Positions 20,781-55,078 of a stretch of DNA of 64,000 nt are shown piece by piece (within the stretch, counting starts at the first letter, position 1; each line of letters begins with the position of its first letter). The DNA is from Tribonema minus (lineage: Eukaryota > Sar > Xanthophyceae > Tribonematales > Tribonemataceae): the NCBI GenBank assembly GCA_017506865.1, contig JAFCMP010000525.1, forward strand, positions 496,001 through 560,000, written 5' to 3'. The notes below the pieces were generated by a model. It was given only the letters and a program-made list of their open reading frames with translations, had not been told where the DNA came from and ran no database searches. Both the position numbers and the translations under genes were made by a program.

Positions 20781-20789
20781 CAAGCGCTG

Positions 20790-21287: not shown

Positions 21288-24200
21288 TCATACTTCAGAA
21301 GTATTAGTTCGTGATCGTTGGCGCACCTCGGGTAGTGGCTCCATGAGCTGGTAGTGCGGCTTGGCCAGGGCGAGCGCTGTCACGGTGATGACGTGGTACG
21401 CGCACGCGAGGCCTGCAAGCCACGTGGCGGGGCGCTGCAGGCCCCCGTCCGCTGGGTAGCCCAGCTTTTCTAGAATCTGCAGACACAGCGGCCACAGATG
21501 GGGAGGGTCTCAGTGCCGTTGGTTGTTTTGCGATGGGTAGCCTAGCTGTCTAGAATATGCAGGCACGGCAACCGCGTGATAGGGTGGGTTCAGTGGCGTT
21601 AATTGTCATGAGACAAGTAGCCCAGCTTTTCTAGACTTTGCAAACACAGCGGCCGCACGATGGGGTGGGGTCAGTAGCGTTGATGATTGTGCGATGGGTA
21701 GCCTAGCTTTCCTAGAATCCTAGCTGTTCTAGACTCTGCAGGCACAGCAGCCGCAGGATGGGGTAGGTTCAGTGGCGCTCATTATGGCGCAATGCGTAGC
21801 CTAGCTTTTCTAGAATCTGCAGACCCGGCGGCTGTGGGTTCAGTGGTGTTGATTGTCGTGCGATGGGTTTTCTATAATCTGCAGACACAGCGGTGGCCGG
21901 ATAGAGCAGGTGCAGTGGTGTTATGAATGTACTCAATGAGCGATCACAATGTGCATGCACGGCAGCCCAGCTCTCCAGAGGTATAGTGTTTAGAACAAGT
22001 GCCTTGGAATGTTCTGCGTCAAGTTTCATTCATACTTCTACAAAGTAACGCATTCATTCAAGCATGCTGATCTTCGCACTGTTCGCCGGTTGCTCTTGGT
22101 GCGTCAGCGGTTTGCCGGCCACTCGCACTACAGCAGAACCTGCCCTGAATTCGAGGTCTCAAAACTTCGCAGACGTCATCCATGCAGTCTGTTGCCGCAT
22201 ATACACTGCGAATGGCTAGAACCAGAGGCAGCTTTGGAGTACCACAGGTGCATGTTAGGTTCATTCACACGCCCTCTGAAATGCAACTTTGTGCAAATGC
22301 TTCAACAGCATGCATGTGTTCGCGCAGTCACGGCGCCGCTGTCACCTGTTCCCCCTTGATCACGACGGGCCTGGGGGACACGCGCATGAACAAGCGCCCC
22401 CACCACCCCGGCCCGTGCTGAGCGCCGCCCCCGCCGCCCCCCATGAGCGACGTCGTTGCGGACGCGCTGGACGGCACAAACGTCGACTCCAGGCGGGCCC
22501 CTTGTAACTGCGAGGGCACGAGGGCGTGGCGCAGTATAAATCACGCGTCGTTGAGAAAAGACGTGGGACGAGCGGCAGCGAAGCGCAGCTGCGCGAGCAC
22601 TGTGGGAACGAGAGAAGCTGTTGGACGGACGGAACGAACGTCGACTCCAAGGCGGGCGCCTTGTAACTGCGAGGGCACGAGGGTGTTGCGCAGTGAAGGT
22701 CTTGTCTTTGTGTGTTGGGAAAGGCTTGGAGCGAGCACAATGTACACACGAGAGGAGTTGGGCAGCGCAGATGAACATCGACTCCACGCGGGCCCCTTGT
22801 AACTGCGAGGGCACGAGGGCATGGCACATTGAAGTGTGTCTTTGAGAAAAGACCCAAAGGCATGACTTGGGACAAGCAGCAGCGAAGCGCAAGCGCTGTG
22901 GTAAGAGGAGAGTTGGCAGCTAGGATGGATGTAAACTCGAGGCGGGCCCCTTGTGTCTCCAAAGGCACAAGGGCGTGGCGCAGTGAAATGTGTCCTTGAT
23001 GAAAGACTTGGGAGGAGCAGCAGCGAAGCGCAGCTGTGCGAGCACTGTGGGAACGAGAGAAGCATTGGCCGGCGAGGGCAAAAGTCGACTGGAGGCGGGC
23101 CCCTTGTCAGTGCGAGGGCATACCGGCATTGCGCGGTGAACATCTTGTGTTTCGTTTTGAAAGGCTCGGGATGAGCAGCACAGCTGCGCTATGTAGCACA
23201 GGGGGAACAAGAGTCAGGCAGTATAAGAATAAACATTGACTCGAGGCGCGCCCCCTCGTAATTGCGAGGGCACAAGGGGCACAAGTGACTGGTTTCATGT
23301 TCTTCTGTTAGGGGGGAGACCTGGGACAAGTAGCAGCGGAGCACGAGTACGAGGGCACATGGGGTGCGCGCCGTAGGCAGTTGAGATTAAATTAATTGCG
23401 TCGTGTGCGCAAAGTGGTACCTGCCGCCGTACCAAGCCCAACACCAACTCAAGCATGGTCAACTTCAACATCTGTACACGCCTAGCTCCCCTAGACGCGC
23501 GTGTTCAGCAACAGTTTGTGGTACTGCCACGATAACTACTGCAAATTGCAAGCCGGTCAGAAATGCCAAAAATGGTGAACTCAATGGCAGATGTTCTGCT
23601 TTGGCTTACATTTCTACATTAGCTGCCTGCCCGCATTCCCTGTAGTCAACAGAATTGGCTGACGGGACATCCTGCGACATGTACCTACCATTCATGAAAA
23701 TAGCTTAGATGCCCTGACGAGTAATGCTTACTCTTGAGCACGCGTGGAGGTAATGCTTGTTGTGAAGTGGCGTGTGAAAGTGATTGTACAATAAATTGCC
23801 TTGGACAAAGTCTTCAGTACATGATTTGACTGGTACACTGTAAGTTTTGCGGTATGCCTAAGCCCACAGATACCGTAGGTATAACAGCAGTGGGCAGTGG
23901 TGGTGGCAAACACCAACAATGAACGCAAGCACAGAGCGCTAATAATTTGGCGCTCTCACCTCCGAACGCCTGTTGTGTCACAATGCCCAATGTGAAAAGT
24001 GGTATGCGTTGAAGCTGATTGTCCACTCAACATGTAAACACTTCAAACCAGGTGTTGCAGACATGCAGTGTGTGCAATGGTAATTGAGAACTTCAACAGT
24101 TGAAGCACATGCGGAGCGTCACCTCTGTTCTGATGACCCCCTCCACCCCCCACTTCATTGTCGACAGCCACTCCATCTTCTTCAGAAACTCGGGCATTTC

Positions 24201-25357
24201 GCCGTGCACTGCAGAGGAGAGGGGCGGGGGGGCAAGGGGGGGCAGGCCAAGCGCGGCGCACACGCTCTTCTGAGTCAACACGATCTACTGAATCACTGCG
24301 GGGGCATAGCTAAGAGGCACATGGTCACGTGCGCCTTTGACAAAAATGACTTCGAATTGTGAGGCCAGTGAGGGCCTCTACCCAGCCTAGCTGTCACCTA
24401 TCACATGTCAAAAGGGCCCAAGGTTTTTACCGTGCTGTGCACTGCGCCTGCACTCTCCGAGCTACGGCGCTCAGACCGCACACAAAGACTGGATCCATGA
24501 TCCTCGCCAGAAAATGCACGACTTCTCTCCGCTCGGCGAGAAGACACGTTCATCGCACAGCCAGTGCTGCGCGATCCGGCGAACCCGCTGTAACCGCTGT
24601 AACCTCCGTACCAGCGGCTACGTGCTCGTTTAACTGATTTAGCTAATTGACGTTGTTGTTTTAATGTTACACTAATACGTCTACGACGCAATTGATTTTC
24701 CCTGATTGTTAAATAGGAATGTTATTACAATAAATCAATATTTTTATAATCGATTTTTTCTGTTGGTTTAGAGGGGATACTCTACGTTTTATACATTTTA
24801 ATATTTGACGTAGCTAACTTTGGTAGGCTTCCTTTGGTGATATTTTGATTTTTAAGTCATCCAACTGTAAATGTGCAAACCTTGTCCTGAAAATTAACCC
24901 CTCAATGACAAAATCACACAACAGAAAAGTCTATCGATGCAAGGATCGTAGGTTTTTTACAAAATGCCAGAGAATTCTAAATATGTTCATAAAAATTGTG
25001 CTAAAAGTCTAAATAGGATTTAGCAAAAGTTTATCAGCTTATTCAACACGATGTAAAATCACTTCGTCTGATGAGAAAGAACCACTACAACTAACGAAGG
25101 AAACCACTATGAGTCTTGAACTTGACCCTAAACTTGCAAAAAAGAGCTTAGTCAGCACAAACGCCGCTGACGCTGGCCGAGCATTAGAATGATGGCAGCT
25201 GCCTCAAGCACACATCTCAGTGTGCCGCCGTTTCTCAAGCGCCTGTTGTGCGCTGCGGTCCCTGGGTTGGGATTAGGTTTGATCCCGCTGCACCCTTATT
25301 TTTGGGCACTGCCATATCTATTACACGCATGTATGCTGTACCCCCCCCCCCCCCCCA

Positions 25358-25389
<32 letters not shown>

Positions 25390-28300
25390 AAGGGCAGTGC
25401 TGCTTTGCGTACATCCGCAGTTGAACTACGACTGGAAAACCACAAGCCGCTTGTGACTTTGGTTTTTTTAACTTGAGCTAAGCACAAACAACAAATTCCT
25501 GCCATTCCTTTCAGGAACAGATCACGGTAACTCACCTCCACTCAGCATGAGGAAGATGACGTTGAGCGCTGGCCCCAGCACCATGGCCGTGTCCATGTTG
25601 GGCGACACGCACCCTACCATCAGGCCAAGGGCGGCGCTGCGTGCGTTTGCGAACGAACGTGCATTTTGAGGCGCGCGCATTCACGTACGAGTGCAATCAA
25701 GTAGTTGCTCACTTCAACTTACAGTACAAGCAGAGAAGAGTTGGTCCACCAGCAGCCCCAGGGCGGCGCTGCGCGCATGCGCAAGTAAATGCGCGATTCG
25801 AGGCGAGCGCATTCAGGCATAATGGTAGTTGCCAACCTCATTTTAGAGTACATGCAGAGGAGAGCTAGCAGCCCACCATCAGGCCCAGGGCGGCGCTGCG
25901 CGTGCGCGCGAATTAACGCGCGATTTGAGGCGAGCACATCGAGGTACGCGTGCAATCAGTTAGTTGTTCACTTGGACTCGCAGTACACGCAATGAAGAGG
26001 TATGTAGCAACCCACCATCAGGCCCAGGGCGGCGCTGCGCGCGCGCGCAAATAAACGCGCGAGTTGAGGCGAGCGCATTTGGATAGTGTGCTGGCAACCA
26101 GTTGGTTGTTCACTTGAATTTACAATTCACGCAGAACAGACTAGCTCTGACTTTAAGCCATCCCACCATGTCTCAGTCACACGATGCCTTGTGTGATGCA
26201 CTTGAGTGCACGGTCGAGGGTGGCGGAGACACCGCCACGCCACACACACGCCGGCAAAGCCCTACTCGACTGCGCCAAGCTTGTGACACGCATGCGAGCC
26301 ACTGTGCTGCGCCGCGAGTGAGCATACGCTTGGCTGATGACACGCCGCCAACAACCTGACAATATGTACTTGAAGTATTGTTTAAAGTACATGCGCATTG
26401 AGACACACTTGCAGTTCTCACAGGATACATATAGTAGGTTCCAGGTGGCAGGCTCGAATTGACCATCTGGGCTTTGACGCGCCCTAAGCGAGAATCTACG
26501 AGACGTGCATACATACTTGAAGTATCATTTGAAGTACAAACCTCGCGTGCGTCTGCAGCAGCACCATGCCCACAAACTCCCCGATTCCGCCCAGGAACGT
26601 TCCGTGCCCCAGTCTGGCCATGCCGTGGACCATGGGGGCGAAGCTCAGGGGGAAGAGCACCATCAGGGGGAGTTCTGCAATGAACTGCAGTCAGCAGCGC
26701 GCGAGTTGCACGGCACATATCAGCCCACATCAGCTGCAGGCTGATATTCCCTGATGATGTCAGATGATGACAGTAAACAGTGGGTGCTATGGAGTGATTC
26801 AAGCTTGCAAAGAGGGGGTGGGTAGGTACTTCAGCAATTCGCCCAAATGAGTGCAGAACAACTTATTTGAATCGGCCGTAATGTTGATGTTCGCTGGCTG
26901 CGCTCGGCCTGAATGCCGCACTCTCCAAAGGTCAGCAAGGTGCTGCAGTGGCACAGGCAGCTGCCCGTGACATGCTTCACAGGCGATGGCTTACACACTG
27001 CCGAGCTCTGCAAGCACGAGCAGCGCTGAGCACTGTGCATTGCCTGCTCCTGAGCGCTGCACAGGCACACAGTGCTGAGCACTGTGCATTGCCTGCTCCT
27101 GAGCGCTGTGCATCACATATTCCTGAGCACTGCGCAGGCATCGCGTGTGAGCGTGCTGCTGCGCCGTGCGCGCCGCATTTGAGCCGCTTGATGCAGGCAA
27201 TGCCGCAGCGGGACCATCATCTAGGCTATGGCGAATCGCTGGAAGTCAAGACCTTGAGATTATATGTGCGGATGTCAAGAAAACAGTGCGTGCGCCGCAT
27301 GCAAGACGCTCGATGCAGGCAGTGCCGCAGCGGGACCCATCTAGCTACGGCGCATCGTTGACTTCAACAACTTCGAACTTGTGCGGAAAGTAAGAAAAGA
27401 GCGTGCGCGCCACATGTGAGCCGCTTGATGCAGGCAGCGCCGCAGCAGGCCCTTCATCTAAGCTACGGCACGTCGTTGAACACAAGAAATTTAATTTACT
27501 TCGAAGTATACATATATATGCCACAGCCGGCCAATCATCTAAGCTACGGCGCATCGTTGAATTCAATAACTTCAATGCATATGTGGGTATCAAGGAACAC
27601 AGCGGCGGCGTCTGGTGCTGCAGACCTTTGCAAGGTAGTACACTTCAGTTCATATTTGAGTATCAGGGAAACAGCGGCGGCGTCTAGTGGTGCGCACCTT
27701 TGCAAGGTAGTACGGCAGCGCTCCATAGCCCAGGTGCAGCCGCTCGCGCATCACCACGGGCTTCTCCACCGCCAGCGTCTGCAGCGCGCCAATGCTGCCA
27801 ATCATGGCCTGAAGGGCAGGGGCAACGGAAGTCTTCAGCATTTTGCACAGCAATCGCATGCACGATGATGCAGGTGGCTTGCCCCACCATCTGCGCAAAT
27901 CTCACAGGATAGGCGTCAAGGTGTTTTAGGGGCACATCGAAGGCACTGAGAGGGTGCAAGCTCCTGCGCATAATATATACGTAAGCTTGCCCTTTAATCA
28001 CTCCTACTTCAGCCTTTGCAGGGTTTTGGGAATGCAAATACGTCAGAAAAAATATTCAACCTGTGACAGGCTGCCATCGCGCCAATGTGCAACAAAACAA
28101 AAAGCCGGTAGATGCGGTTGTCGGACGCGGCACACGCTCCGCTGCACCGCACACGCTCCGCTGCGGTGCATCACCCATCTACCATCTGCACACAGCCACT
28201 GATCCGTTACAACCAGCGACAGCAAGTTCAAGAGCCGACGCTCCCTTACTGCTCGTTGGCGCAGCCGCTCGCAGCCAGGGCTAGCTCAGCCACAGCGCAC

Positions 28301-31300
28301 CATCGCAGAGACCGCTACTGTTGCTTTGACTAGTCTGCCTCAAAGCCATCTTCAATAGATGACGCTCCCTGACAGCATTGATGCACACAGGGGCGCTGCT
28401 GCTTCTTGATCGCGCTTCACACCAACTTCAGGAGATGACGCTCCCTCACCGCTTTTGATGCAGATCAACGGCCGGCGAGATGCGGTTGCACGCCGCCCAT
28501 ACTGCGCTCTGCACAACACACAGGGAGACGGTGCTGTCGCTCAAAGATTCGCCCTCAAAGCAACTTCAAGCGATGACGGTCCCTCACCGCATTAATGCAG
28601 ACGTTCACGGCCAGCGAGATGCGGTTGTGCGCAGCGCGCTCCACCCCTGCTGCGGCGCCCGCAGCCCCCCCCATGTCCCAGAAGATGGCCCCGAAGAACC
28701 CCCCCAGCGCGATGCCTGTGCGCAGGGAAGAGTAGAAAAGGCGTCGTGAGCAGCCGGTCTGGTCATGCTGAAGCACACGGGTGCTTTGGAAGCACAGCAT
28801 GCTTGGTCATGAGCGCGGTTGTGCTCTCTTGGGCAGGAGCGCGTTGCGCTGGTGGATTTTAAGCATAGAGTGCTCTATGACTGCTGCTGGCACAGCGTTC
28901 ATGTACCTACCTAGAGACCCAGTGCACTGCATTGCAGATTACACCTTGAGGCGCGACGCCCTTCAGCGTCACCCCGTGGCAGCGCTCCAACGTGCAGGTA
29001 CAAAATATGGAGAAAAAATTGAAAAGAGTATTTTCAAGCATGTGACATCACTCCTTTTCAAGCTGCCGAGGCGCATGCACGTCCTCCTATAAATCAGAAC
29101 TGTCACGTGGATGCGGCCAGCAGGGGCCAGCACAGCACCAGGCGAGCAGCGCACCATGTCTGCACCATGCGGCAGCTCAGCGCGACCGAGGCTCTTGCAA
29201 TGCAGGCCAGTAGACAAGGCGCACACACTAATCCTAACCCTAACCCTAAGTCCACGTCGTCTCCACGCGACGCTGCACGACGGCGCGCGCGCTGCCGTTG
29301 CGCGCGCAAAACGTTACTCTCAAGAGCAGAAGTAATAGCGGGTATGCGGCATGCCTACTTGAGCTTCATCGAGTGCAGCAGCGCTCAGCGATGGCGAGCT
29401 GTGCGACCATGTGGACGTCAAGGCGCGCGCATGACCTGACAAAAAGCGCGTGTATAAACTCAAGGCGTTCTTCAACTTCAACCACAGTGCGCAAAATGCG
29501 TCAGCGCTCACTGGTGGCAAGCCGTGCCAGCACATTTGTGGAGTTGCGCGCGACCTGGCAAGACTTGGAAAAAAGTACTTCAACTTCAATCACAGTGCAG
29601 GATGCGTCAGCGCTCACCGGTTGCGAGCCGTGCCAGCATACTCGTGGAGTTGCGCGCGACCTGGCGATAGCATGTGCTCAACGGTGTTCATTCAAGAAGC
29701 AGTTACGCGACAGCGTTCATCACTGGCGAGCCGCGCCAGCATGAAAAAGCATGTACTCCACTGTGTACTTCAACTTCAATACAGTTTTGTGAAAGCGCTC
29801 ACCGGTGGCGAGCCGTGCCAGCATACTCGTGGAGTTGCGCGCGACCTGGCGCCACGAGCGCACCAGCAGCAGCCTGAACTGCGTCAGCGCGCCGACGCGC
29901 CCCTTGTTGGGGGGGACCTGGGGGGGATCACCGGGGTGCAGTGGGTGCTCAAAGTGAGAATTACTTGAATTGATTTCAGTCGTGGACGTGAATTTTGAAA
30001 GGCCTCAAGGGAGGCCAGGTTTTGATGCATTTCTAGGGTTTACTCCTACGCAGAGACCTAAGCTGCACTGCGCCCCGGGAGCTTGGACACCGGCGCTGCA
30101 GCCCAGTCCAGCGTCCGTGCTCCGCGTGTGTACGCGATACGCCATGCGCTGAGAAGGGAGGACCAGTGCAAGCAAATCCCAAGCGAGATGGCGGAATTTC
30201 GTCAAAGCCGCATGCCCAGAGGTCACGCCAACAATACTCTTGAAGCACTTTTGTAGGTGGGCGAATGCAGGTGACAGTCAAGCTTGGCGGGATGCTGTAT
30301 TAAAGCACACACTATCACCGGATAAGCCATGGCACGCCTCACCGTGACAGCATTGTCGCCGATGCCGTCCGCTGCCGCGGCGGCGGCGGCGGAAGCGCAC
30401 GCGTCGCCGTCGTCGTCGATGTCGGCGGGGCGCTGACGCCACGCCTCGCGCGCCGCCAGCGCAAAGCGCCGCAGGCGGTGCTCTTCGTCCTCCTGGTTGG
30501 CCTCTACGCTCGAAGAAGGAGGTGAAAGGTGTATAGTTACGAAGTGTAAGTGTAAAGATTGAGTGGCAGTATGTGTGGAGAGAGGGCAGCTCGGGCTCAA
30601 AGACGCAGATGCAGAGTACATTTTCAGGTATGAGACTATACATGGGGGCGCAAGATGTGTACTTGCAAGGCGCCGTCTTCCTGGTCAGCCTCTGCGCACA
30701 CAAGAGGCTCAAGGTTCACAGGGCCGCCGAGTGCCTAATGTGACTCGTTGAGCATCGCTACTAGGAGTATGTAGGAAACGCTTTCAGGTGGACCGTCAGA
30801 GTGTATTCGAGGCATTTGAAGGGGAAAAGAAGCGGCAAACATTGCTGGCGCGGCTGGTGCACAGCCAGATGTTTACTTTCCCTTTCATTTCTCTAATACA
30901 TCCACAATCTTCTGTGCAGGTGGATCCTGAACAGCGCCGTTGCGCGCGTGCGCACGCGCATCACTTGCGTTCACTTGCGCCACACTGCGCAGATGACAGC
31001 GCACTGCTACTGCACGCGCCAGGTGAGGCACGAGATATTACCAGGTTTCGCACGACGAGGGTCCAGACGAGGCTGAAATGTGCCTTCACATCAGGCGCGT
31101 GTCGAAATTTACAAGAGTCACAGTTGTGCGGCGAGCACAGCCTTGTTTGCATTGTTTCCGTGTCAAAGGGCTTTAAGCGGTCCTTCCCCCCCCACCCCCT
31201 ACGCGCGTGCAATCACCATCGCGCCACTTTTGAGTTTTGCTGAGACTGTCATTTTTACGACTTGTCGGGACTACAGTAAGGAAGGTCTACAGTTTGGTCA

Positions 31301-34300
31301 GAGTATGCGCTCATTCAATGGTGGTCTGTGCGCAGCCTTGCGCTCACCTGAGCTGCCCTGGCATGCAATCACATCGGGCGCATCTCGATGTTCACAGAAA
31401 CCAAAACCACAGTTGTGCGGCATGCATGGCCTTGTTTGCATTGTTTCCATGTCCACAGGGGCACGCATCTGGCTCTTTCACACCAACTCTGGCCCTATCA
31501 TACCAGCCTGGCACACAGTCCCCCCCCACACACACACACATGCACACCCGTGCGCGCAACACCATCCTGCCGCTAGGCTTCGCCGAGACTGTCGTTTCCA
31601 GGGTTTGTCGAGACTAGGAGTTTGGTTGCAGCATGCACTCATTAGATGGCACTCTGTGAACAGCCCTGCGCTCACCTGAGCTGCCCTGGCTTGCGCCCCC
31701 CCCCCCCTTCCCCTACTCCCCACCGCAATAGCATGCTGTCCCGCCACTTGGTACGCTTTGATGCAAATGTGTGTTGGGGTTTCCTAATCTACTTCAAGTA
31801 GTTGAGAGCTCTACAACCTTTTGATTCGTTTCCATTTGACTATTAGACTGAGCGCTGTGTACGGCCCTGCGTTCACCTGAGCTGCCCTGGCTTGCGCCCC
31901 CCCCCCTACCTCTCCCCCCCACCGCAATAGCATGCTGTCCCGCCACTTGGTACGCTTTGATGCAACTGTGTATTAGGGTCTCCTAGCCTATTTGACCATT
32001 AGATTGAGCGCTATGTGCGGCCCTGCGTTCACCTGAGCTGCCCTGGCTCGCGTAGCCGTGCGCCAGCGCGCCAGGGCTCACCAAGTCCAGGAGAAAGTCC
32101 GCAGGGCTGGGGGGACACGGGACGCAGTACTAGGGTTAGGGGCTGGGTATGAGAGTATTTGATATCACCCTAACGTAGGGGCAGCAGGCGCGTTGAGCGC
32201 TGCTCAACAGGAAGTCCGTTGGGGTGCTGGTAATGGGGGGGGATGCAGTACTCCAAGCAGTATAAGGATAAGAATCCAGGTAATGGCAACTGCCTTACCC
32301 CTGGGACAGATCAGTGAGCGCGCTGAGGTGATGCCCTGGTGTTCGTGACTTCACACTCTGGTGCGGTATGGTGCTGCGACCCACAGTGCAGGTCCGTTCC
32401 AGTGCACCCTCCTCTCAATCTAACCCAACATGCTCCTAAGGCTTGCAGGCACGGTCGCAGTGACGATAGCAGGATGTGATGTGGGGGCTGCAAGAGGAGG
32501 TGGGGCGGGGCGGGGGGGGGGGGGGGAGGGGCTGCAAGCTGCTTCTGCCGTGCTGAGCCGGCTATGCAACCACACTACACTCCGGAAGAGGGGCGGTGGC
32601 AGGGTGTTTGCAACACTGGGTCCAGCGCTATGCAGAGCACGAGTGCGGCACGCACGGTGCATCCTAACGTCGGCAACATACTTTAGGCCCGTGAATAGTG
32701 AGAAGCCTCAGCCAGCATGGCGGGGGGGGGGGGGCAACGCTGGCACTGCCACATCAGCAATGATGAAGTGAAGGGGCCTGTCAAGGCTTCGGACCGACGA
32801 GATACAAAAAAAAAAAATGAGATGCTGCGTGCGCCATCCCGCGGCGCTGCGCCGCTAAAGTTGCTACACAGGCGAGGGCTCTTTCAATGCACGAGGGCGC
32901 GAGCGCACGCATGCTGCAGCGCACTCCACCACTGTTGCAAGGGGATCGGAGGGGGTCTGCGGGGCACGGCTCAGGCGACGCGCCCACTGCACATGCAGAG
33001 GGGTAGGTATGTACGCTAGGCTCACTTGCACTGCGACGGCACCCTGTTGAAAAAGCGTTAGGGCTAGGGTTAGGGTCAGGGTCAAGGCTAGGTTCACTAG
33101 AACTGTGGCGGCACGGTGTTAGGGTTAGGGTTAAGGCTAGGCTCACTCTAACTGCGGCGGCACGGTGTTGGGGTTAGGGCTAGGGTTAAGGCTAGGCTCA
33201 CTTGAACTGCGGCGGCACGCTCTTAGGTCCAGAATTACAGGTAGGGTTAAGGCTAGGCTAAGCTATATTGAACTGCGGCGGCATGCTGTCAGGGTTAGGG
33301 TTAAGGCTAGGCTCACTTGAACTGCGGCGGGACGCTGTAGCCGAGCGCCTGGAAGTGTGGCAGCGCCTGCTCTGCGGGCCCCATGTACATGACTTCGCCC
33401 TGCACAGCGGCGAGCGCGCGCGGAAGAGCGGGGCCGAGCGAGGGGCATGAGCAAACTGTAATCAGCGAACTTGAGTAGTGTGATCAGAGAAGGAGAAGGG
33501 GGGGGGGGGGGGGGAGGGGGGCGGGAGCGATCAAGTGTCAGTGCCAGCCAGATCTCTTCCACACTGAGTGAAGGTTTACAACAGTCAGGGATGCACAGAG
33601 TTAGGGTAAGGGTAAGGATCTCTGAATCATGACAATCGACGTGTTGTTGTCATTTGTCAGCGCAATGCGTGCAGGGCATAACCAGTTCAAAATGTGTGAC
33701 GGTAACGACAGCAGAACAGCTGTACTTGAGCAACGTTGTGTGACGACCAAAATAAGCTCTCTGCAGCAGAAGACTGTCGAGAACCCCCTGCCTGCCACCG
33801 CCAGGATGTGCATCGGAGGTCGTGACCACCAGTAATCATGCCACCAGGGCACACTTCAAGACCCACCATCTTCAATGCCGATTTCCAACGCATCTTCAAT
33901 GGCGATTTCCAGCGAGCACGTTGACACCCACGAAATATCGCGCTTGGGTGCAGCACAATGTGAGCTTGTCAACACACCGCACCTGGCGTCGCACGGACCT
34001 ACTGAGAAACGCTATTTAGCGCCTGTCAACAACGACGTGGGGGGAAATACCGTGCCACAACACGCTGCAAACACTGGGTGCAGAGCTGCCAGGCAACGCT
34101 GCAACTCAGCAAGTTGCACATAATCTGGCCGCATGTCCATGAAGTTGGCTGCATGCACACGCACAGCTGCGGCCGCAAGTGCACAAGATATGGCTGCATG
34201 ATACATTTGTGAAACACACGCGCCGAGCACCCCTTTCCAGGCCTTTCTTATCACAAATCCAGGGGCATGTACTACATATGGCATGCACCGTAATGGTAAC

Positions 34301-44470: not shown

Positions 44471-45810
44471 TCAGGTGGACTTCTTGGGGGCTGCCGCCGC
44501 CGCGGGCGCGGAGCGCTGCTGCTGCTGCCCCCGCGCCGCGTTAAAAAGCGCGTGCAGCACCGCGAACGCGCACAGCCCCACGGGCCCCGCCATGCAGGTG
44601 AAGAAGAGGACGGGCGCCATGAGCACGAGCGGCACGGTCGCTTCGCCGCGCGACAGGTTGTAGCGGGTGACCATGAGCGCCGTGAAGAGGTCTGCGGCGG
44701 CGGCGGCGGCGGCGGCAGCGGGGAACGCGGCGGTAGTGTGAGTAGGTCGCTAGTGAGCGAGGCGTGAGTGGGGCGGGGGTGGCGTATGAATAAGGCTGGG
44801 GGGGGGGGTGAGGGCTTCATGTGGCATTTATTGTCGCCGGGCAGGGTGATGGGGGGGCTTAATGTATGTGACATGTATTGCCGCGTTTTCACAGCAGCAA
44901 CGTGAAGCCATACTTCACTGTCGCGCTGAGAGTTTCGCAAGCGGGCGAGCGCGGGAGGCCCTGCAAATCCCCGGTCATCGCACACACGACAAGGACGGAC
45001 GCATTGCGGTGCAATGCCCACCACGAACGCTGCTGGGGTACTAATCATGAAGGTCTGTTACGTTGCTTATCCAGCATCAGCACTGGCCAAAGTGCTGACA
45101 GCACAGCCGGACGGCGCCGCTGCCAACGCCCCAGCGCAAGAGGCACTCGCCAAACTACGTGCGTGAGAGGTACGGCCTCCATTCATTGTCTCTGTTTCCG
45201 AACCGATCGAGTCAGATGCGGGGGGTGGTGTGTTCGTGCCGCCACCGCGGCATGTCGGCCCGCGCAATCACGAGCGACACATGCTTGTGCGCCCTCGTCA
45301 GCCGCACCGATGAGCACGTGCCGCCGAGAGCCAACAGTTATTTTTGACATGATCTATTTGCAGAATGTTCTGTTACCCTCTTGCCCACAAAATGTGTGGT
45401 TTCGGATTCATGCTCAAGCTGATCCGGACATTTCAAGTGAGGCAACTCTGACAATCACTGACACAACAGGCACGCGTCACCCCCGCCCTCTGCGCGCGGG
45501 GCGGCGCGCCGAGCGACCCACCGAACGCCAGGTAGTGCACCCACGCCGCGAGCGTGATGTCCGGGTGCACCAGCAGGCCGCGCACGCCCGCCAGCGAGTT
45601 GAAGTCCTCCAACTTCATGCCGCCGCCGGACGTGGTGGCGTGCGCCATGAGCAGCGTGTAGAAGATCGCGTAGAAGCCGATGGTGACGCCGGCGACGGCC
45701 TGAGAGGCCTTGAAGCGCGGCGCCAGGATGAGCAGCGCCCACGCCGGCATTACTAGCTGGCACGCCCCGAAGAGCTGCTCGTCCGAGTACTGGAGTCCCG
45801 GGATGGGCAT
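44471..45810 (-). CDS. ABA4-like (DUF4281) membrane protein
   Basis: Exon 1 45810-45522, exon 2 44691-44471; phases match, 169 residues. Four hydrophobic segments are visible: LFGACQLVMPAWALLILAP, AVAGVTIGFYAIFYTLLMA, ITLAAWVHYLAFDLFTALMV (made by the splice), and VLMAPVLFFTCMAGPVGLC. The pattern DFNSLAGVRGL, then AWVHYLAFDL, then FFTxxAGPVGL is diagnostic of the DUF4281 family. The plant member ABA4 is a plastid membrane protein needed to make neoxanthin from violaxanthin; algal and cyanobacterial members are common. The frame stays open upstream to 45978, and an AG at about 45846 could be an acceptor, so a plastid-targeting leader on an earlier exon is possible. Shares its upstream region with the PhyH gene. 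Confidence 0.88.
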
Positions 45811-46541
45811 GGTGCTGAGGTCTGGTGCGCTGCTGTGCCTGCGGCGGAGACACGTGGTGCGGTGAGGAGAAGTGCGCGAGCTGTTGTGTGTGGTCATGTG
45901 CGTGGGTGTCAGCCCCTGCCTGTGACCGCGTGGATCTGCTGCTGCGATGGCTGTCACTGATTCGCTGTCGACAAACAATGAGAGTCAGAATACCTCTTTT
46001 ACTTAATTACTGGAATCACTAGAGGTGTTCCAGGCCCTCACAAGATGGCATGATTGTATGCACCAAGCAGCGAGCTTGCAGGCATACGCCGATTGTGGCC
46101 TTATGGTTGCTGCCGTGAGGGTCTCTGCATGTGTTACCCGTGAGACGAAACAGGTGCTACTGTGGATCGTGTTCACAGGAGGCGAAGGCTTACTCGGCCA
46201 ATTGCGCGCAAGCAGAGGCAAGCATGGTGTCAATGCCGATGACAGGCCTCTGGCACAAGGGGACTAGTAGTTCGGGGTGCAATGATGGGCCTGCCAGTGC
46301 TGTTGATGAGGTCTGATATCCAGCATGCACATAAAGATCTGGGGGTAGCGTACGCCTCATCGGTGTGAAGGATCACCTGACAGAATCTGTTTCGACGAGT
46401 GGTGACGCTGCGATCGCAAGTGTCTCAGTCCTGATGGCGCCTATCACTTTTCTCTCTTTTTCTCTGTTCTTTCTTTCTTCACGTTGCAGTTGAAGTTCAG
46501 TCCGTGAAGGTGACTTCGGTGCCTGCAGCCTAATACCAGTG
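45811..46541. promoter_or_regulatory. Divergent intergenic region, ABA4-like (-) / PhyH (+)
   Basis: 730 bp separate two start codons facing away from each other, so it should hold both promoters. A pyrimidine-rich stretch (TCTCTTTTTCTCTGTTCTTT, about 46451-46480) lies just upstream of the PhyH start; such tracts occur near transcription starts, but I cannot place a start site. Confidence 0.5.
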
Positions 46542-49500
46542 ATGATGCAGACACGCAGGGATCGACGGAGTGCTCCTGTGCCGGCACGCTCATCAATTAT
46601 TACACTGGTGCTTCTGGCCTCTTGGCGGCAGGCTCATGGCTTCGTCCCAGGTCATGTGCGTAACCACTCGCTTGCTGCAGTGTCTAATGCATATCAGAGA
46701 CAGTTAGACCAGCCTCTTTACTACCAAAGCGGTGATACGTAGGTGTACCGCCCGCGTAAAGTTGATGATCGTAGTTCCTGGTGCAGGGTGGGGACAAGAC
46801 AACAGATAATGGGTCGTTGAAATTTAGAGTTCGGCAGTTAAGCCAGCTTGAAATTTATTTGTGTACTACATTCTAGCACAAGGCAGCATCAAGTGGCAGG
46901 CAAAGCGTGTAAGTTTGCGCCTGCTCTGCCGACCCAAAGCTGCCCACAAGTGGTACTGCAACTCAAACAGCCACCACAAGCAGGCACATGACTTTGGTCA
47001 CTGGGCACCGTTCGCGCTGTTCCCTATCTTGTCATGTTGACAGGCATGCACAGCGGGGAGTCAGCAGCCACACACCAGCGGCAGCCCCCTCACTTGCAGC
47101 AGCAGGCGACAACAACCACTACACATCGCCACCGGCGACGGCGACGGCAGCGCTGCGCTGACAGTCACCCCGGCGGCAGTGGACATGAACTTCCTGAATG
47201 TCGCGCAGCCGGTGACGTGCGCGGAGATGTTGAAGTTTGAGCGGGGGGGCCACCTGCTGACGCGGGGACTGTTCTCGGCGCAGGAGATGGCGCTGCTGTC
47301 GCCGCACATCATGGCGGGCTTCCGTGCGCTGGAGCTGAGCGCGCTGCAGCAGAAGGTCTGTATGTAGGATATGGGGGTTTTGCTCCCCAGCAGTGCTGAA
47401 ATTTAGTCCGGGTGGCAGCAGCCTGGCGCTGATGTCGATGCGGCAGCACACAGAGGCCCTGAGCATGCTACAACAAGAGGGATGGTGATGGCGCATTGTT
47501 TGTATATTGATGCGTGCACATGCGCTGCACTCTTTTTTCAAAACTGGGGGTGGAGCCTCACCCTAACAGGCAACGACCTGAGTGCAGAGGGCGTTACTGT
47601 GCAGCTCGGTAAAAAAAGTCAGTCCGTTCAAACTCAATTTCACTCAAGTGTCGCATGAGTAAAGGCGACCCGAGACGCGAACGCAGCGCTCACACTGCGG
47701 TGCGTCGCTGCATGGAGTGGCTGCAAGTTGAAGGTACCTGATTAATCTGCCACGTTTCGATGGCCGCACGGCCCCCAGCAGCTGCTCGCGATGCGTCCAG
47801 GCGGATTCTGCCTGCCACACTTGTAGTGGCGGGCGTGCTCACGCAGGCGTGACTCTGCAGGAGCTGCATGCCGCGAGCTCTGGCGGGAGGCATGCGTGCA
47901 GGTCTGGGGGCAGCCTAATGACAGCTGAATGACGGTAGCGCGGGCAGCTCACTGAACCGCTGCACGCGAGGCTGGGAAAAATGCATTGCATGGCGGTGCC
48001 CCCTGCCTCCTTGTCTTCCAACAACGCTGGCACGATTTCTGGTATAGGCGCTCATCGTTGGTCGTGCCGGTGCGGCGCACGACATGCCGCACATCGCGCC
48101 GGCGACCACTGAGGCGGCCACGCAGCCCGCTGATTCACACACGCCGCGCTCTCACCCCGACACTGGCTCTTTAGAAGGGCGAGTGAAGGGGCCTGCAGTG
48201 CCACCGCCGCTAACGCTCCCCGCTCTGTCGGGCGGCAGGTGGCAACGCCGACGCGCGACCGCTGCAGCATGCGACGCGCAGCCCTTGTTCGGCTGCGGTG
48301 ATGAGCTCGCCTCAGGCTGGCACAGGTGTCTCCGCCTGCACCCGTCTAATGCATGTCAGTTCTGCTTGGAATTCCTTTACTGAGCAGAATTTTCTATAAT
48401 GAGCAGAATTTTCTTCAACGAGTAGCATTTACTTTCACAAGCAGAATGGTCTTTAATGAGCAGGTGACGGTGCTGCTGGGCGAGGGCGCGGCGCCGCCGG
48501 GCGCGTCCGCGGAGGACCTGCTGGTGCTGCTGCGGCAGCTGCCGCCGGACGAGATACCGTTCCTGCAAGGTGCGCGCGGCCGCAGTGGGTGCTCTGCATC
48601 TGTGGACGCCCGGGAGTAGGCCTGTACGAGTCGCTTCTGTGTGTGTGTATGTGTGTATGTCACTGGTGGGCTGAAGGTGCGCTGGACGTAGCGCCGCCTT
48701 TATAGATGCCACTGGAGGTTTGCGCTTCTTCGACCTGCGATGCTCCCGCGCGGTGCGCCGCCAGCGGCCTGTCACGCGGGGCGGCGCGCATTTATTGTCC
48801 CCCTTCCGTTGACAGGACGTGCGCGATCATCACAGGCGCACCGTGCGCGTGCCACCGACGGGCGCAGGGCGCCAACAGTCGCAGCACTGGGTGCACGGCA
48901 CGGCGTGCAGACAGACAGCAGGGCGCTCGTTCACTCACGCAGCGCGCACGTTCACATCACCGAGGCGGCATGCGCAACGGCACCTCGCGGCGTAACTACA
49001 CCGGTCCAGCCCCCTGCGGACGTGTGCCGCATGCGCGCTCCTCCTGCATCTAAGCTTGGGCGGATGCTGCGCTCGGTTCTCGCTCGGTGGGCATGTGCAG
49101 AGTTGGCCGGCTCTGGCCGAATGTCCAAGTAGGCTGGGGGGTGTCGCTGATGCCAGCAGCATCATTCATGACTCCGGTTGTGATCGGAAGCGCCCGCCCC
49201 GCCGCCGCTGCTGCCGCTGCCGCCACGCGGCGCCCGCGCAATAACGCTGAGGGGCACGGCGAGTGCTGCTTGCTGTGTACGGCCAGTCGCTGGAGCTGCC
49301 GCACTTGCACGCGCTCGCTCACAATCAGGCCTTGAATGCTGTGTCCAGGGGTGGGGTCTGATGCGGTGTTCGACAGCGTGCCCACCTCTTAGCGCCGCTG
49401 TGGCCGTGCGGCCCTAACCCTAGTCAATGACTGTGTCAACGCGCTGCTGCCAACAGTGTTCGACGTGCAGTGCGCGCAAGAGGCGTGCGCCGCCGCCGCC

Positions 49501-52500
49501 GTGACCTAATCCCAACCCCAATCCTCATCAGCTAGTGACTGCGTCGACGTGTTGCTGCCGCAGTGTTCAACATGTGGCGCACGCCGGGGGCGCACGCCGC
49601 CGCCGTGAGCGCGCTCGTGCGCAGCCGGCGCCTCGCGCGCCACGCCGCCGCGCTGCTGGGCTGCCAGGCCGTGCGCGTCTACCAGGTGACCGCATGCCGC
49701 TTTTCGCGCGAAACCACGTGCTTGAAGTAGAATGCCATGACTTCCAGGGTTTTGAAGTGGTGTTGCGCATTGTGCTTTTGCTTGCCACGACATGCGTGTC
49801 TACCAGGTGACCGCATGCCGCTTTTGGCGTGATAAGACACACTTCTGTCGCAAACTAGGGTTACGAAAAATACCACTGGAATGTTTTATAAAATCTACTG
49901 CCTTTTTAATAGCCATACTTCTATATATCTTCACCAATGTTGAAGTACTTGAAGTAGAATACATCCAGGACTGAAGTGGTGTGGATATGCAGATGCGTGT
50001 GCTCCTTCATGTTGACAAATGCTGCCAATCGCACGCAGCAGCTGATGCGCGGGCCCACCACGTGCGCACGCCCATGCGCATTGTGCTTCTATGTACTTGC
50101 CACGCCGTGCGCGTCTACCAGGTGACCGCAACACTAATGGAAAACGATGACGTTTAACTTGACGTCCACTTCGAGTACTATGTAGTAGTTGAACATTTGC
50201 ATCGGCATGCGTTTATTTGACACCGCGCCGTGCATCAGAGGCTGCCCTACGCCCTCATATAAACCCTGGCCCTGCGCCTACCCCCAACCACAACAACAGT
50301 ACCGCTGCGAGAGCGCAGGGGCGCGTTGCGGCGCCCCTCAGCACCTGATGACTAACCCTAACCCCAACCTCACCTAGCACGCCTTACCTTAACCCCCTGA
50401 GCCCTGCTTGCACGCGTCGCCCGCAGGATTCTACCTTTGTAAAGAGAAGCGGCGACGGCCCCACCAACTGGCACAGGTGAGCTGCTGCCGCTCGCAATGC
50501 AGCATTTCATTCGCCTGAGCACTGCTGTAGTGCCCCCCCCCCCCCCCCCCCCCCCCTGCCCCCCTAGCGGCATCAATGCTCAGCTCTGGGCTGCTGCTGC
50601 TGCGCCGCTGCGGAGGCATGAGCGCAACAGGGGGTGATAATGAAGGTTAGGCGCAGCGCGCGCCGCCTTGTGTTTCAGGGCATAAGGATGCTGAGCCAGT
50701 CATCGCCGCGCCTATCGCGCAGAGGTACTACATACTTCAAGAGTGAAGTCCCATCAGGCCATTTCACCTGCGCCCGTCGGTGCACTTGTGTGCCGCTCGC
50801 TGACAGCATGGGAACAAGTTGCGGCGTACTGCCTTCCGCCATTCTGGTACTTAAAGAACGTCAATATCGCTTGAGTAACCTGCTGCCGCTGCCCCCCCCA
50901 AACCCTCACCTCGGCGGCGCCCCCGTGTGCGTTTGAACATGGACTTATATATACAGTAGTGGTTTTCGTTGTTTGCTAGAGGCTTTACGCACATGTACAG
51001 CTTAGCTCCTTACAATCCTGCCAACACTATGCAGGTACATGTACGGGCCTGCTGGAAAATCAATTCTAAAAGATATCGAGGATTTGCAAATCAGGATCAG
51101 GGTCGTTCAAGTGTGGCCAGGGGTGTGGGCACCGCCTTTGAACTGATCTGCTGTTGCAATGATTGATCAACCCATGCAGGTGCAGCACAGCATCGACGAT
51201 GGCAGCCGCTGCCATGAAGTTTCAGTTGCGAATTTTTTCAAGATTTATGTATAAACGCACTTGTTTGACTGACTGCCGCTGCATCTGTGCTGGGTTTTCA
51301 TGGATGCTTTGCAGGGGATCATGTGGCCAAACGGTTTCTGATGCTTGCATGTGCACATTATTGACTCTTTTGATCCAAAAACATGTTGTTCTTCAGCATG
51401 GCGCATTGACTCTTTTGATCCAAAAACATGTTGTTCTTCAACATGGCGCACTCCTCCTCTCAACACTCCTCCTCCCCTCCCAAAGCGACCTCAACATGGC
51501 GCCCTTCGACACCAACGACATGGTGACGGCGTGGCTGCCGCTGACGCACATCGCGGCGTGCGAGGACGGCGGCAGCGGCCTGGTCTTTGCCAGCCGCAGC
51601 CACCGCGACTTTGCGCTCAACTACTGGCAGGACCCGCACGCGCAGGAGGACCTCAGCGAAAGGTGCGCTTGTGTCTGCAGAGTCCGCGCTTCAAGAGTAC
51701 ATGAATGATATATTTTTGAGGGTCTGTCACGCCTTCATTGCGCTGGCGGCACTTCAACTGAAACGCGTCAGCGCGACGCTGGCGCTGGCGCAGCGGGCGC
51801 GACTCGTGTTGCGTGCGCGCGCTTTCCCCGCGCAGCATTGCGACTGCACCTGTTGAGCGTTGTCAGTTTCACGTCTGCACGCATGCAACGGCGCTGCCGT
51901 CTCTGCTACCGCCCAATGCGACACCAATTCCGCGAAACATAACTCCTAGTGCCGTCTCCGGCAATGGCGGATACGACCTTGGTTCTGCATGACATAACTG
52001 AGGAATTGTTTGCAGTGCTCTGGCATCAATTTCCTCATTGCCATGGTTGCATGTGACTTAGGTTCAAAATTGTGGAAGTGCTGTCACTAATTTTGCCGTT
52101 TCACATGACGCAGCCGCAAAGCTGGTTGTACATGGTGCTGTCACTGATTTTGCGTTGATGCTTTTGGAAGCTCACGCAGCGCTGCCGCCGCCGTGTTGTG
52201 ATTGTAGTGCTATCACTAGCTTTGCCGTTTCACATGATACAAGTCCCAAGTGAATGGTACTGCTGTCACTGATTTCTGTTGTGGTGCCTCCTGGAAGCTC
52301 ACGCAGCGCTGCCGCCGCCGTGTCGCGTGTCGCGGCAGGTACGACGAGACGCCGCAGCTGGCCATGGAGCCCGGCGACTGCAGCTGGCACCACGGCTGGG
52401 TGCTGCACAGCGCCAATGGCAATGACGTGAGACGCATGACATATTCTTTGCGGGACCCCCCCCCCCCCTTCCGTTGTGTAGACACCATGGTAGCGGTTGC

Positions 52501-54962
52501 CGTTGCCAATTTGGGTCATAGCAGCGAGCACCACGGCTGGGTGCTGCACAGCGCCAATGGCAATGACGTGAGGCGCATGACGTATTTTCTATGTATGCTT
52601 ACTACCACGGCTGGGTTGCTGCACGGCGCTCACGGCATCGACGTGATGCGCATTACATATGTATCGTATATGCTTCGCCCCCCCCCACACACACACGCCT
52701 TTGTAAGCACAAGATTGCTGTTGCCGTTGCCAATGTGGGTCATGAGGGGAATGTTTGCCTAACCCCCACAGTCAGGATTGGGCCACTGCGCGCCTGCAGC
52801 TGGTACCACAAGTTGGTGTGGCACAGCGCCCACGGCGACGGAGTGAGGCGCATGAGTTGTGCTGCTTGTGAAGACGTATTGGGGCCTGCATGACAATTTT
52901 CATACAGGCACCGAGATGCTTGCAATTTCATTGACGACTCCGGGCGCACATGCGCAGGGGGCCCATCGGGTCCGTGTTGCATTGGGACAACTAAACCGCA
53001 TATTAGGGCTACTCTGAGGGTATTGCTGTTGAGAACACCCCTCTACACATGAACGTGGACGCACGTCAAGAGGGTGGGCCAGGCTACTCGTGGCAGTAAT
53101 CGTTGCGCAAGCTCTGCGGCCGCTTCGGTTGACCTCATCTTTCCGCACATTGCACTCATGCGTGCGACAAGTCCCATGGGCTGTGTAGAGGCGATCGCAG
53201 GTCACATACCGCTCGCCGCAACCGCTGCAGCACTGTGGCTTGGCTGCAGCAATGGGGGGAGACTACACGTACTTTGGGCACGCCCGCAGGAAACAGATGA
53301 TACCCACACCGCCCCTTCTTGCAGTTTCAGGGTCTTGAGGAAGGGGGGGGGGGGGGGGGGGCGGGGGCATTAGTCCCTGTAGTTAAATATAGATTTCCCC
53401 TTTGTCTCAGCATCATGTGAAGGCAGGAAAGGGGCCGTAATCTAATCTGTTCCCTACGGTACTCATGCAATTCGTACCGTGTTTTCGATATCGTCTACAG
53501 ACGCCGGAGACGCGCGTGGCCTTCACCGTCAGTTACATTGCCGACGGGGCGCGTATGCTGGGAGAGGGCGCCGAGCACTATCCCGAGCAGGAGGTGAGCT
53601 TCTTCAATTTTGGTCTTGAAGTTCACATCAAGCGTGACGCTCGCCACTGTTGATGAAGAGACTGCATGCTGCTACAGAAAAGATGCGCTCTTGATTAACC
53701 GTAGGCTTGCGTGAATGTCCGAGGGACATTCGCGCATCGGCCTAATTGTAGACAGACTGACACTTTGCGTACATTGCCGACGGTGCGCGCATGCTGGGGG
53801 AGGGCGCAGATCACTACCCCGATCAGGAGGTGAGCTTGTTCAACTTTGATCTTGAAGTTCATACCGAGCGCGGCGCTAAAAATGGACCTCAAGAGGCTGC
53901 ATGCTACTTTAAATGAAAACGAATCAAAAGATCGTAGAGCTCTAGGTGACAAGGGATGGTTAGCCGCAAGTGCCTTCCACCAATAACCGTGGTCGGCGCT
54001 GCTGCAGCAGTTGCCCACGAGTCAAACAGTACCCACCGTATCCACCAGTCAAAAAGACATTTTGTGTGCAAGCTTAAATACAAGATGCGCTCTCGATGAG
54101 ACGTAAGCTTGCGTGAGCGGCCAAGGCGCAGTTGAGCGCACACCTCGTTAGCATGTTTATGTTTGAGCTACTAGTGCCCGCTGTGCCTGTCACAGAGGAT
54201 GCATCCGCCTGCTGCAGTTGCAGATGATGCAGCATTGTGAAGTTCTCATCGACCGATTTACTCGGAGAATGTGGGATAACCAGCACCACACAAGCAGTGC
54301 TCGAAGCGCGAGCGGTCGGTATGAATGATGTGCTCAGGCAATTGTTGGTGCGAACTGCCAGACGGAGAATCATGTGTGCAGGCTAGCATAGTACAGCGTA
54401 CCAATGCGTATGGCACAGGCGCGAACGGCCGCAGCCGCAGTTGAAGCATATACATGGCGCGGGTACCAGGAAGAGCAATGGAGGAGAAAAATCTAATAAT
54501 ATTACCATCCACAGCAAAGTTATGCGTGCCAGCTGAGGTTTGCTGCTGGGTCACATGAACCAATGATCTGGAGCGCTCGCACACACTGTAACTTCAACAG
54601 TAATCAACCTCAGGTGCACTGTCATGTGCAACTGCTGTGTGCAAACCTAATTGCAGAGCAGCGCCCATCTTGCAACAGCCAGTGACCTCGAGGATTGCAG
54701 CTGTGCACACTACCTATATTAATGCCACTCTCGGACTGGCGCCTGCCTGCATGTATGCGATCACGTGACACAAACACGAGTGCGCGCACCATGTACACTT
54801 CATACATACCTACGGTATGCGTGCCCGCTGCGCGCTCAGGACACGTGGAGCTACAGCGACTGGATCGCGGACACCTGTCCGGGCGAGCCTGCGGACCACC
54901 CGTTTCTGCCCGTGGCGTTCGATTTCGCGGAAGAAGTGGGCCTGGAGGGGCTGCCGTTATGA
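46542..54962 (+). CDS. Phytanoyl-CoA dioxygenase (PhyH) family protein, nine exons, plastid-type leader
   Basis: Exons: 46542-46738, 47100-47355, 48464-48569, 49564-49685, 50427-50476, 51486-51662, 52339-52426, 53501-53593, 54840-54962; phases agree, 403 residues. Fe(II)/2-oxoglutarate oxygenase core: GGHLLTRGLFSAQEMALL, QVFNMWRTPG, DSTFVKRSGDGPTNWHSDLN with His243-x-Asp245, DMVTAWLPL, GWVLHSANGN with His326, and Arg337 eleven residues later for 2-oxoglutarate, as in human PHYH (His264/Arg275). It begins with basic residues, a hydrophobic IITLVLLASW core and AHG/FVPGHVRNHSLAA: a signal peptide followed by an aromatic residue, as in secondary-plastid import. PhyH proteins hydroxylate many substrates, so the substrate is unknown. 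Start at 46542; Met 46545 is also possible. Confidence 0.93.
49800..50130 (+). repeat. Donor-junction copies after PhyH exon 4
   Basis: GTCTACCAGGTGACCGCATG at about 49797 and GCGTCTACCAGGTGACCGCA at about 50110 repeat the exon 4 end and donor (junction 49685/49686). The first copy is also preceded by CTTGCCACGACATGCGT and the second by CTTGCCACGCCGTGCGC, showing a shared unit. Confidence 0.88.
51355..51450 (+). repeat. Acceptor-side duplicate before PhyH exon 6
   Basis: Two tandem 50-bp units (ATTGACTCTTTTGATCCAAA then AACATGTTGTTCTTCA), each ending in AGCATGGCGCA or AACATGGCGCA. These resemble CTCAACATGGCGCC of exon 6 (acceptor 51485/51486). Confidence 0.8.
52525..52860 (+). repeat. Donor-junction copies after PhyH exon 7
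   Basis: Three downstream copies of the exon 7 end and donor (junction 52426/52427): about 52530-52580 (near-identical; re-encodes HHGWVLHSANGND then GTGAGG), about 52600-52650, and about 52795-52850 (more diverged). Confidence 0.92.
53765..53875 (+). repeat. Donor-junction copy after PhyH exon 8
   Basis: ACATTGCCGACGGTGCGCGC to CAGGAGGTGAGCTTGTTCAA repeats 53535-53610, so the copy re-encodes IADGARMLGEGA and keeps the GTGAGC donor. Similarity continues into the intron (GATCTTGAAGTTCATACCGA). Confidence 0.92.
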
Positions 54963-55078
54963 CACAGATTCTTCAATGTACCCTTGTTGCAATGCACACT
55001 TGTTACAAAGGCATTGTTTCAGGTGTAACGTGTCGAATCCTCCTCGTTGAAACATGGTGTAATTCATTGCAGGGTACA

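Follow-up and report, generated by a model that had tools for sequence, protein, structure and literature searches.

In a 64,000-nt stretch of the genome of the xanthophycean alga Tribonema minus (contig JAFCMP010000525.1, positions 496,001 to 560,000; hereafter the window), the introns of two genes, one for an ABCG half-transporter and one for a PhyH-like dioxygenase, carry short tandem arrays in which the edge of an exon, its splice site and the adjoining intron sequence are copied. These arrays belong to a known but little-known kind: an exon edge is copied, in direct orientation and together with its splice site, into the neighboring intron, donors and acceptors are both affected, and the origin is local, all of which characterizes the "mirages" of amphioxus and the "exon stuttering" of birds. 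Taking all the evidence together, we favor, with moderate confidence, an account in which they are exon-edge minisatellites of this type produced by a mutational bias at the edges of spliced genes' exons.

The exons of both genes were set by hand from reading frame, GT/AG sites and phase, and every phase was consistent. The curated set comprised ABCG exons E1-E17 and eight PhyH exons, the latter named P1, P2 and P4-P9 since a candidate P3 was discarded. Two further features came from a gene finder: the donor of E17, at 21327, and E18, the last ABCG exon, at 20318-20470, in agreement with the end of the public protein. The hand models agreed with public T. minus proteins over their common parts, from E2 onward: JKP88DRAFT_346958 was 97% identical to the ABCG translation (query coverage 88%) and JKP88DRAFT_346961 was 91% identical to the PhyH translation (query coverage 100%). 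PhyH relatives in public data have a longer N-terminus than the hand model. In window coordinates, used throughout for these genes, the two models are:

20318..41234, minus strand: ABCG half-transporter gene, 18 exons (17 hand-built coding exons and the last from the gene finder), compared with public protein P0054
47185..54962, plus strand: PhyH-like dioxygenase gene, 8 coding exons, aligned with public proteins P0001 and P0002

Each curated junction was probed with up to 60 exonic and 30 intronic nt against up to 1000 nt of the adjacent intron, with 300 shuffles as the null. At 19 of 48 junctions an exon-containing direct copy in the adjacent intron beat every shuffle (p ≤ 0.0033), where ~0.2 were expected. 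They were the following: the ABCG donors of E2, E3, E5, E6, E7, E8, E10, E11, E12 and E17; the ABCG acceptors of E2, E4, E14, E16 and E17; the PhyH donors of P4, P7 and P8; and the PhyH acceptor of P4. The E13 donor, P2 acceptor and P7 acceptor reached the same p via intron sequence alone and were excluded from the 19. At least one edge was copied in 13 of the 18 ABCG exons and in 3 of the 8 PhyH exons, and in a self-comparison of the window local direct repeats (≤1 kb apart) covered 29% and 15% of the spans of ABCG and PhyH, respectively, the other three parts of the window having 0.7%, 0% and 5%. A first-pass annotation of the window had named 16 such junctions in the two genes. Assuming that its exon numbering is identical to ours, 14 of the 16 reached significance, which establishes that the arrays are real in both genes; the acceptors of ABCG exon 9 (p 0.017) and PhyH exon 6 (p 0.013) were not confirmed by the junction test, and the list was short by five (E17 acceptor, E17 donor, E2 donor, E6 donor and P4 acceptor). 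The arrays and copies are located as follows:

20765..21399, minus strand: E17 donor junction, followed downstream by two copies, one of which the public model takes as an exon; E17 itself spans 21327-21476
21450..21930, minus strand: E17 acceptor junction array, unit ~81-98 bp
22469..23278, minus strand: E16 acceptor junction array, unit ~157 bp, genome match at its own place only
25609..26135, minus strand: E14 acceptor junction array, unit ~130 bp, genome match at its own place only
27569..27713, minus strand: E12 donor junction duplication, unit 73 bp, bordering an intron-sequence-only array at 27165-27573
28338..28635, minus strand: E11 donor junction copies (junction test)
29467..29851, minus strand: E10 donor junction array (junction test)
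31291..32052, minus strand: E8 donor junction array (junction test)
33015..33338, minus strand: E7 donor junction array, including telomere-like GGGTTA words
34343..34606, minus strand: E6 plus donor; the copy, at 34343-34385, is short and decayed, matches 26 nt of exon and 14 nt of intron, and scores 36 (null maximum 27)
35326..35514, minus strand: E5 plus donor; the copy, at 35326-35358, is short and decayed, matches 24 nt of exon and 7 nt of intron, and scores 40 (null maximum 30)
36629..37072, minus strand: E4 acceptor junction array, unit 116 bp, ~3.5 copies, 91% matches, genome match at its own place only
37399..37881, minus strand: E3 (a 60-bp exon) and its donor, with copies at 37644-37708 (95%) and within 37399-37520 (74-75%), one of them in the public model
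38012..38402, minus strand: E2 donor-side array (junction test)
38509..38830, minus strand: E2 acceptor copy, 85%, coding sequence in the public model
49428..49605, plus strand: PhyH P4 acceptor copy (junction test)
49662..50130, plus strand: PhyH P4 donor copies (junction test)
52374..52855, plus strand: PhyH P7 donor array, nearest copy 94%
53534..53877, plus strand: PhyH P8 donor copy, 86%, partly in the public model, genome match at its own place only

Telomere-like CCCTAA/GGGTTA words occur in introns at 29230-29250, 33055-33330 and 50350-50370, one set lying within the E7 donor array. By eye, the word ACTTCAA/TTGAAGT seemed frequent near copies in the introns of positions 20000-55000.

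Anchoring of local arrays on junctions was assessed in a sample of 264 kb (positions 396001-660000 of the same contig, C522), comprising the window and 100 kb on each side, with exons predicted by a gene finder whose training began with the curated exons and continued with its own predictions (the first pass recovered 21 of 25 curated exons exactly). Local arrays were defined as copies within 1 kb, simple repeats and pairs <20 bp or >1 kb apart being dropped, and an array was scored as anchored when one of its edges lay in a predicted exon that extended at least 15 bp beyond the array and ended at a splice site inside it. On this basis 72 of 100 local arrays were anchored on a predicted splice junction, compared with a mean of 19.3 and a maximum of 32 under rotation (n = 1000). 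Varying the exon-score cut-off (three values) and the model settings (two) left the count at 69-72 of 100 (null means 17.4-19.5), and with the interval of the original finding removed 56 of 77 arrays were anchored (null 14.5, maximum 27, n = 500). When the sample was split into blocks (99 of the 100 arrays, one spanning a block border being omitted), the anchored arrays numbered 9/18, 18/24, 28/38 and 16/19 against null means of 2.3, 3.1, 9.1 and 4.8, the largest null value in the first block being equal to the observed 9. A constrained exon keeps its half of a copy longer, yet the excess persisted when masking of the exons limited the matching to non-coding sequence, and anchoring is therefore not merely a matter of exon conservation: of the 80 arrays left, 27 ended ≤5 bp from an exon edge (null 1.6, maximum 7, n = 2000) and 37 ended ≤30 bp from one (null 8.4, maximum 18). 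Predicted exons inside arrays were removed in the masked, opposite-end, coverage, composition, frame and exon-limit, age-gradient and one-pair-per-junction analyses; they were retained in the anchoring count and in the 404-junction anatomy and 102-pair divergence described below.

Introns <150 or >5000 nt were left out of the coverage, opposite-end and composition counts, which left 137 introns (139 kb). Local copies covered 18.9% of these predicted introns versus 2.7% of intergenic DNA (16 intervals >600 bp, 78 kb). In introns of at least 1200 nt, coverage was ~27% beside the junction and, at 600-800 nt from it, 8% on the donor side and 16% on the acceptor side, with an acceptor-side minimum of 8% at 500-600 nt. 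A junction-spanning array was present in 60 of the 137 predicted introns (donor array in 42, acceptor array in 29). The upstream exon end was recopied within the first 400 nt in 45/137 introns and the downstream exon start within the last 400 nt in 29/137; inverted exon-edge copies were found in 0 and 2 of the 137, which equals background. Together, the anchoring and coverage tests support the first-pass proposal that local tandem duplication across junctions has recurred at intron ends, with the real exon bounding the array. The comparison suggested at that time as a possible refutation, run here on the 264 kb, did not refute it, in that local copies are not equally frequent in intron interiors and intergenic DNA, though some occur in mid-intron. 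The position of the copies on the intron side, also noted then, is partly forced, because an exonic copy would disrupt the exon.

Such a constraint might by itself be the explanation, if tandem duplications arose evenly over the genome and were tolerated only in introns or across a single junction. A selection sieve of this kind accounts for the intron-side copies and for the scarcity of arrays inside exons (2 of 100, rotation mean 4.2). It is nevertheless improbable as the sole cause, given that intergenic DNA, which presumably tolerates duplications no less well, had the far lower coverage noted above, and likewise at matched GC content (100-nt windows: introns 13-19% in bins with more than one window, intergenic DNA 0-3.4%), and that array ends at exon edges far exceeded random placement in the same interval, even with exons masked.

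Alternatively, exons could seed duplications through their composition, transcription or methylation, or through the step in GC where they meet the intron, with those that reach non-coding DNA surviving. The concentration of arrays at exon edges is in keeping with this possibility, as is the exon-intron GC step, which was larger at array junctions (0.113 vs 0.068, p 0.004). However, predicted start/stop codon edges were covered in 0/38 cases as opposed to 133/395 predicted splice edges (a comparison in which gene ends are unreliable and some splice edges are themselves copies), exon GC was the same at predicted junctions with and without arrays (0.688 and 0.688; 71 vs 203), G-quadruplex (G4) motifs were similarly unlinked (12.7% vs 13.3%, same numbers of junctions), and the short exon part of the copies is not predicted. 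We consider exon seeding followed by a sieve unlikely. High GC or G4 as a driver was rejected, as no link appeared in exon GC, G4 or GC-matched windows. Intron GC was lower at array junctions (0.57 vs 0.62, p 5e-5; 71 of 274 junctions), and the base composition of the border may be a factor in array formation. Introns at array junctions were also longer (970 vs 817 nt, p 0.005), and array frequency varied between genes (p 0.008). Since the concentration at junctions is not explained by high GC, G4 or exon conservation, it suggests that exon edges are subject to a mutational bias.

The opposite-end counts bear on the model of Rogers, in which an exonic AGGT is duplicated and the introns themselves are the duplicated exon. 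That model shares with our observations a tandem duplication involving AG/GT, and one potato case spans an exon border (PMC4974935). In addition, the first and last 150 nt matched in 10/137 introns, which is above the null, but these windows overlap in short introns. The matches that the model predicts, of the upstream exon end at the 3' end of the intron and of the downstream exon start at its 5' end, were found in 3 and 1 of 137 introns (~0.8 and 0.6 expected) and, among introns of at least 500 nt, in 3 and 0 of 105 (0.6 and 0.4 expected), and intron start matched intron end in 1 of the same 105 (0.6 expected). Intron birth by this route is thus a very improbable source of the arrays. Tandem-duplication intron gain resembles the process described here in being local and in reusing splice signals; it differs in creating a new intron, whereas in Tribonema it is introns already present that grow longer, with cross-matches close to background.

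Introners are dispersed mobile families that bear on intron evolution at genome scale. Elements of that or another mobile type inserted at splice sites would explain why repeats adjoin splice sites in many genes. In contrast to such dispersed families, the four complete arrays that were compared with the 158-Mb assembly (E4, E14, E16 and P8) are single-locus, with no match beyond their own place in a search that ignores very common words, and the units hold local exon sequence, so that a mobile origin has a negligible probability.

Of 404 predicted junctions, 74 had a spanning copy, 38 of them being donors and 36 acceptors; at these 74 the copy period had a median of 154 bp (5-95% range 81-325 bp) and the exon part of the copies a median of 47 nt (5-95% range 16-88 nt). 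There were 1 to 7 copies per junction (79 junctions). The exon part was <90 nt at 59 of the 61 junctions whose exon extends past the copied part. For exons of at least 200 nt (25 junctions), one exon part exceeded 90 nt, compared with 10.3 under uniform breakpoints (0 of 20,000 simulations were as low), and the intron part of the unit exceeded 90 nt at 16 of the 25. It is possible that this exon-side limit of ~85 nt results from selection against long exon-like copies. Among 46 junctions with at least two copies, the nearest copy was closer in sequence to the exon than the farthest copy in 30 versus 15, p 0.025, which hints weakly that arrays grow where they adjoin the exon.

In 102 junction-spanning pairs, a set to which one junction may contribute more than once, divergence was 9.1% in the exon part and 15.6% in the intron part, with mismatches of 8.1, 5.9 and 13.4% at codon positions 1, 2 and 3. 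Restricting the comparison to one nearest pair per junction (55 junctions) gave 8.9% for exon and 14.8% for intron, and 8.3, 6.3 and 12.2% for the codon positions. This pattern fits a freely changing copy (~7% divergence) beside a constrained exon, the divergence doubling only where the source is also free to change. The splice dinucleotides were retained in 44/52 copies for GT and 44/50 for AG (102 pairs), or 27/30 and 21/25 (55 junctions); ~86% retention is expected under one-sided decay of 7% per site, and 63% under two-sided decay as judged from intron identity. The distance from the true to the copied splice site showed no excess of multiples of 3 (23/19/19). An apparent excess (34/18/22) had made frame selection a candidate; it disappeared once the splice sites of the copies were mapped and predicted exons inside arrays were removed, and frame selection was rejected. 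Neither part of the earlier suggestion that copies are kept because the strongest site preserves the reading frame was borne out, as GT and AG were kept at roughly the rate of neutral decay and the distances showed no frame bias. The copies mostly keep usable dinucleotides and, on these sequence comparisons, appear neither favored nor disfavored.

Some copies have nonetheless been annotated as coding sequence. The public ABCG protein P0054 holds extra segments that are junction copies of the start of E2, of E3 and of E17, and the public PhyH protein P0002 holds GADHYPDQE, which is part of the P8 donor copy; a second extra segment of P0002 corresponds to no junction copy. The P8 copy is lacking from P0001, a transcript-derived PhyH protein of a relative (98% identical), and the E2 and E3 copies are lacking from the more distant homologues P0055 and P0057. 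Given that public models hold junction copies that relatives lack, we conclude that annotation mistook some copies for exons. The practical cost is that the predicted proteins of both genes carry false internal repeats, and the annotation problem is possibly wider. The same observations bear on the idea that the copies are functional alternative exons or redundant splice sites under selection, for which the mostly preserved GT or AG and the copies that serve as exons in public models could be cited. This is most improbable, however, as retention is about neutral, frame bias is absent and the relatives compared lack the extra segments.

Junction copying is not confined to ABCG and PhyH. At eight loci found via the ABC domain (two of which, L001 and L003, overlap), arrays met predicted exon edges in six by eye, the exceptions being L002 and L008. 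Six-frame Pfam matches numbered 56 for chaperonin, 132 for kinesin (122 of 191 candidates scored), 54 for ABC membrane and 22 for ABC ATPase (19 of 203 scored). Inspection by eye of the matches listed identified five exons with a neighboring match ≤600 bp away that was nested in the profile range of the exon to within one position. Downstream copies ended as the exon does (contigs C511, C246 and C5) and upstream copies started as the exon does (C51 and C135), so that all five behaved as the junction rule predicts.

Elsewhere in the window, an ABA4-like open frame was identified at 45433-45984 (minus strand; PF14108, E 1.9e-13), and the stretch in which it lies, 41235-46500, is without local copies. 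A tandem duplication of ~1.7 kb at 13323-16835 (period ~1.86 kb, 82% identical) exceeds the 1-kb distance of the self-comparison. On another contig, a satellite-like array with a period of ~420 bp (G000:C223:607722-611400, L029-L030) was observed, in which the gene finder calls repeated 39-nt exons.

The account that we favor, exon-edge minisatellites arising from mutational bias, runs as follows. Local tandem duplications of ~80-320 bp occur repeatedly across junctions, each taking in the splice site, ~100 nt of intron and mostly no more than ~85 nt of exon, and the concentration at junctions inside genes suggests that a mutational bias at the exon edges of spliced genes directs them there. 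As the divergence patterns show, the copies on the intron side then decay as neutral sequence. They are most likely silent, the simplest account being exon definition, in which the true donor and acceptor would form the shortest exon and a copy carries one site only. Introns therefore tend to lengthen inward from their ends, as the weak age gradient indicates.

Several observations weigh against this account. Exons beyond the two curated genes come from the self-trained gene finder, which at its last pass reproduced 19 of 25 curated exons exactly, and 28 of the 100 arrays were unanchored (2 inside exons and 26 elsewhere). Mid-intron 70-mers were locally copied in 18/137 introns, and the contrast of the exon edges (45 and 29 of 137) with this control is smaller, exon edges being favored here by conservation. 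The larger GC step at array junctions belongs here too, and the exon-side limit of ~85 nt is unexplained by the favored account. That the copies are silent is most likely, a reading drawn from the divergence patterns and, for the P8 copy, the transcript-derived protein of one relative. On other contigs, 12 of 31 arrays were anchored (null mean 5.4, maximum 12, n = 200), a result in the same direction but weak, from a sample of 40 kb from two contigs plus eight partly overlapping chaperonin-exon loci that included truncated loci and one satellite-like stretch.

Contrary to the first-pass impression that junction arrays were previously unknown, they have been published as mirages in amphioxus (PMC3087553, PMC3902484) and as exon stuttering in birds (PMC12954441). 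The mirages are described as minisatellite-like duplications of intron-exon borders in Adh3, globins, TnC and PGBD5 (PMC3087553, PMC3902484). The copies, with units of 150-160 bp in the globins, in many cases keep AG/GT, reportedly leave regular splicing undisturbed and are unstable in length, with somatic instability at Adh3 (PMC3087553). Both these and the Tribonema arrays are tandem copies across an exon-intron border at either end of an exon; the amphioxus reports proceed gene by gene and show length instability, whereas the present count of 60/137 predicted introns in 264 kb derives from a single assembly. Hron et al. (2026) described for the dot chromosomes of the chicken a "sequence stuttering" or "exon stuttering", the copying of a lateral exon part and its donor or acceptor through the adjacent intron, in 190 of 5,572 dot-chromosome introns, with an exon part of 20-187 bp (median 36) and intergenic DNA also affected; the authors propose GC or G4 stress or meiotic events and mention gerbil genes as a further case, with data not shown (PMC12954441). 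The local copying of a lateral exon part with its splice site is common to both systems, the exon part in Tribonema having a median of 47. Unlike in the bird system as there described, 72/100 arrays in Tribonema were exon-anchored, intergenic coverage was 2.7% and high GC and G4 were unlinked, although the screens differ and the rates are not directly comparable. No report of such arrays in an alga was found in searches of the open PMC literature, outside which most subscription papers lie, and within it the terms "sequence stuttering", "exon stuttering" and "stuttering introns" occurred only in PMC12954441. So far as these searches show, the new elements here are the lineage, the density, the anchoring and neutrality tests, the exon-side limit and the finding that high GC is not linked to the arrays.

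In view of these parallels, we speculate, with considerable reservation, that spliced genes have a specific mutational hot spot at their exon edges, where a duplication process tied to splicing or co-transcriptional events, its exon-side breakpoint lying no more than ~85 nt from the splice site, has shaped introns independently in the alga, in amphioxus and in birds and provides a general way for introns to lengthen. If exon edges were duplication hot spots in both chordates and stramenopiles, there would be a mutational process of the splice junction and an added way for introns to lengthen, and Tribonema, with so large a share of its sampled introns affected (60/137), would make junction duplication testable.

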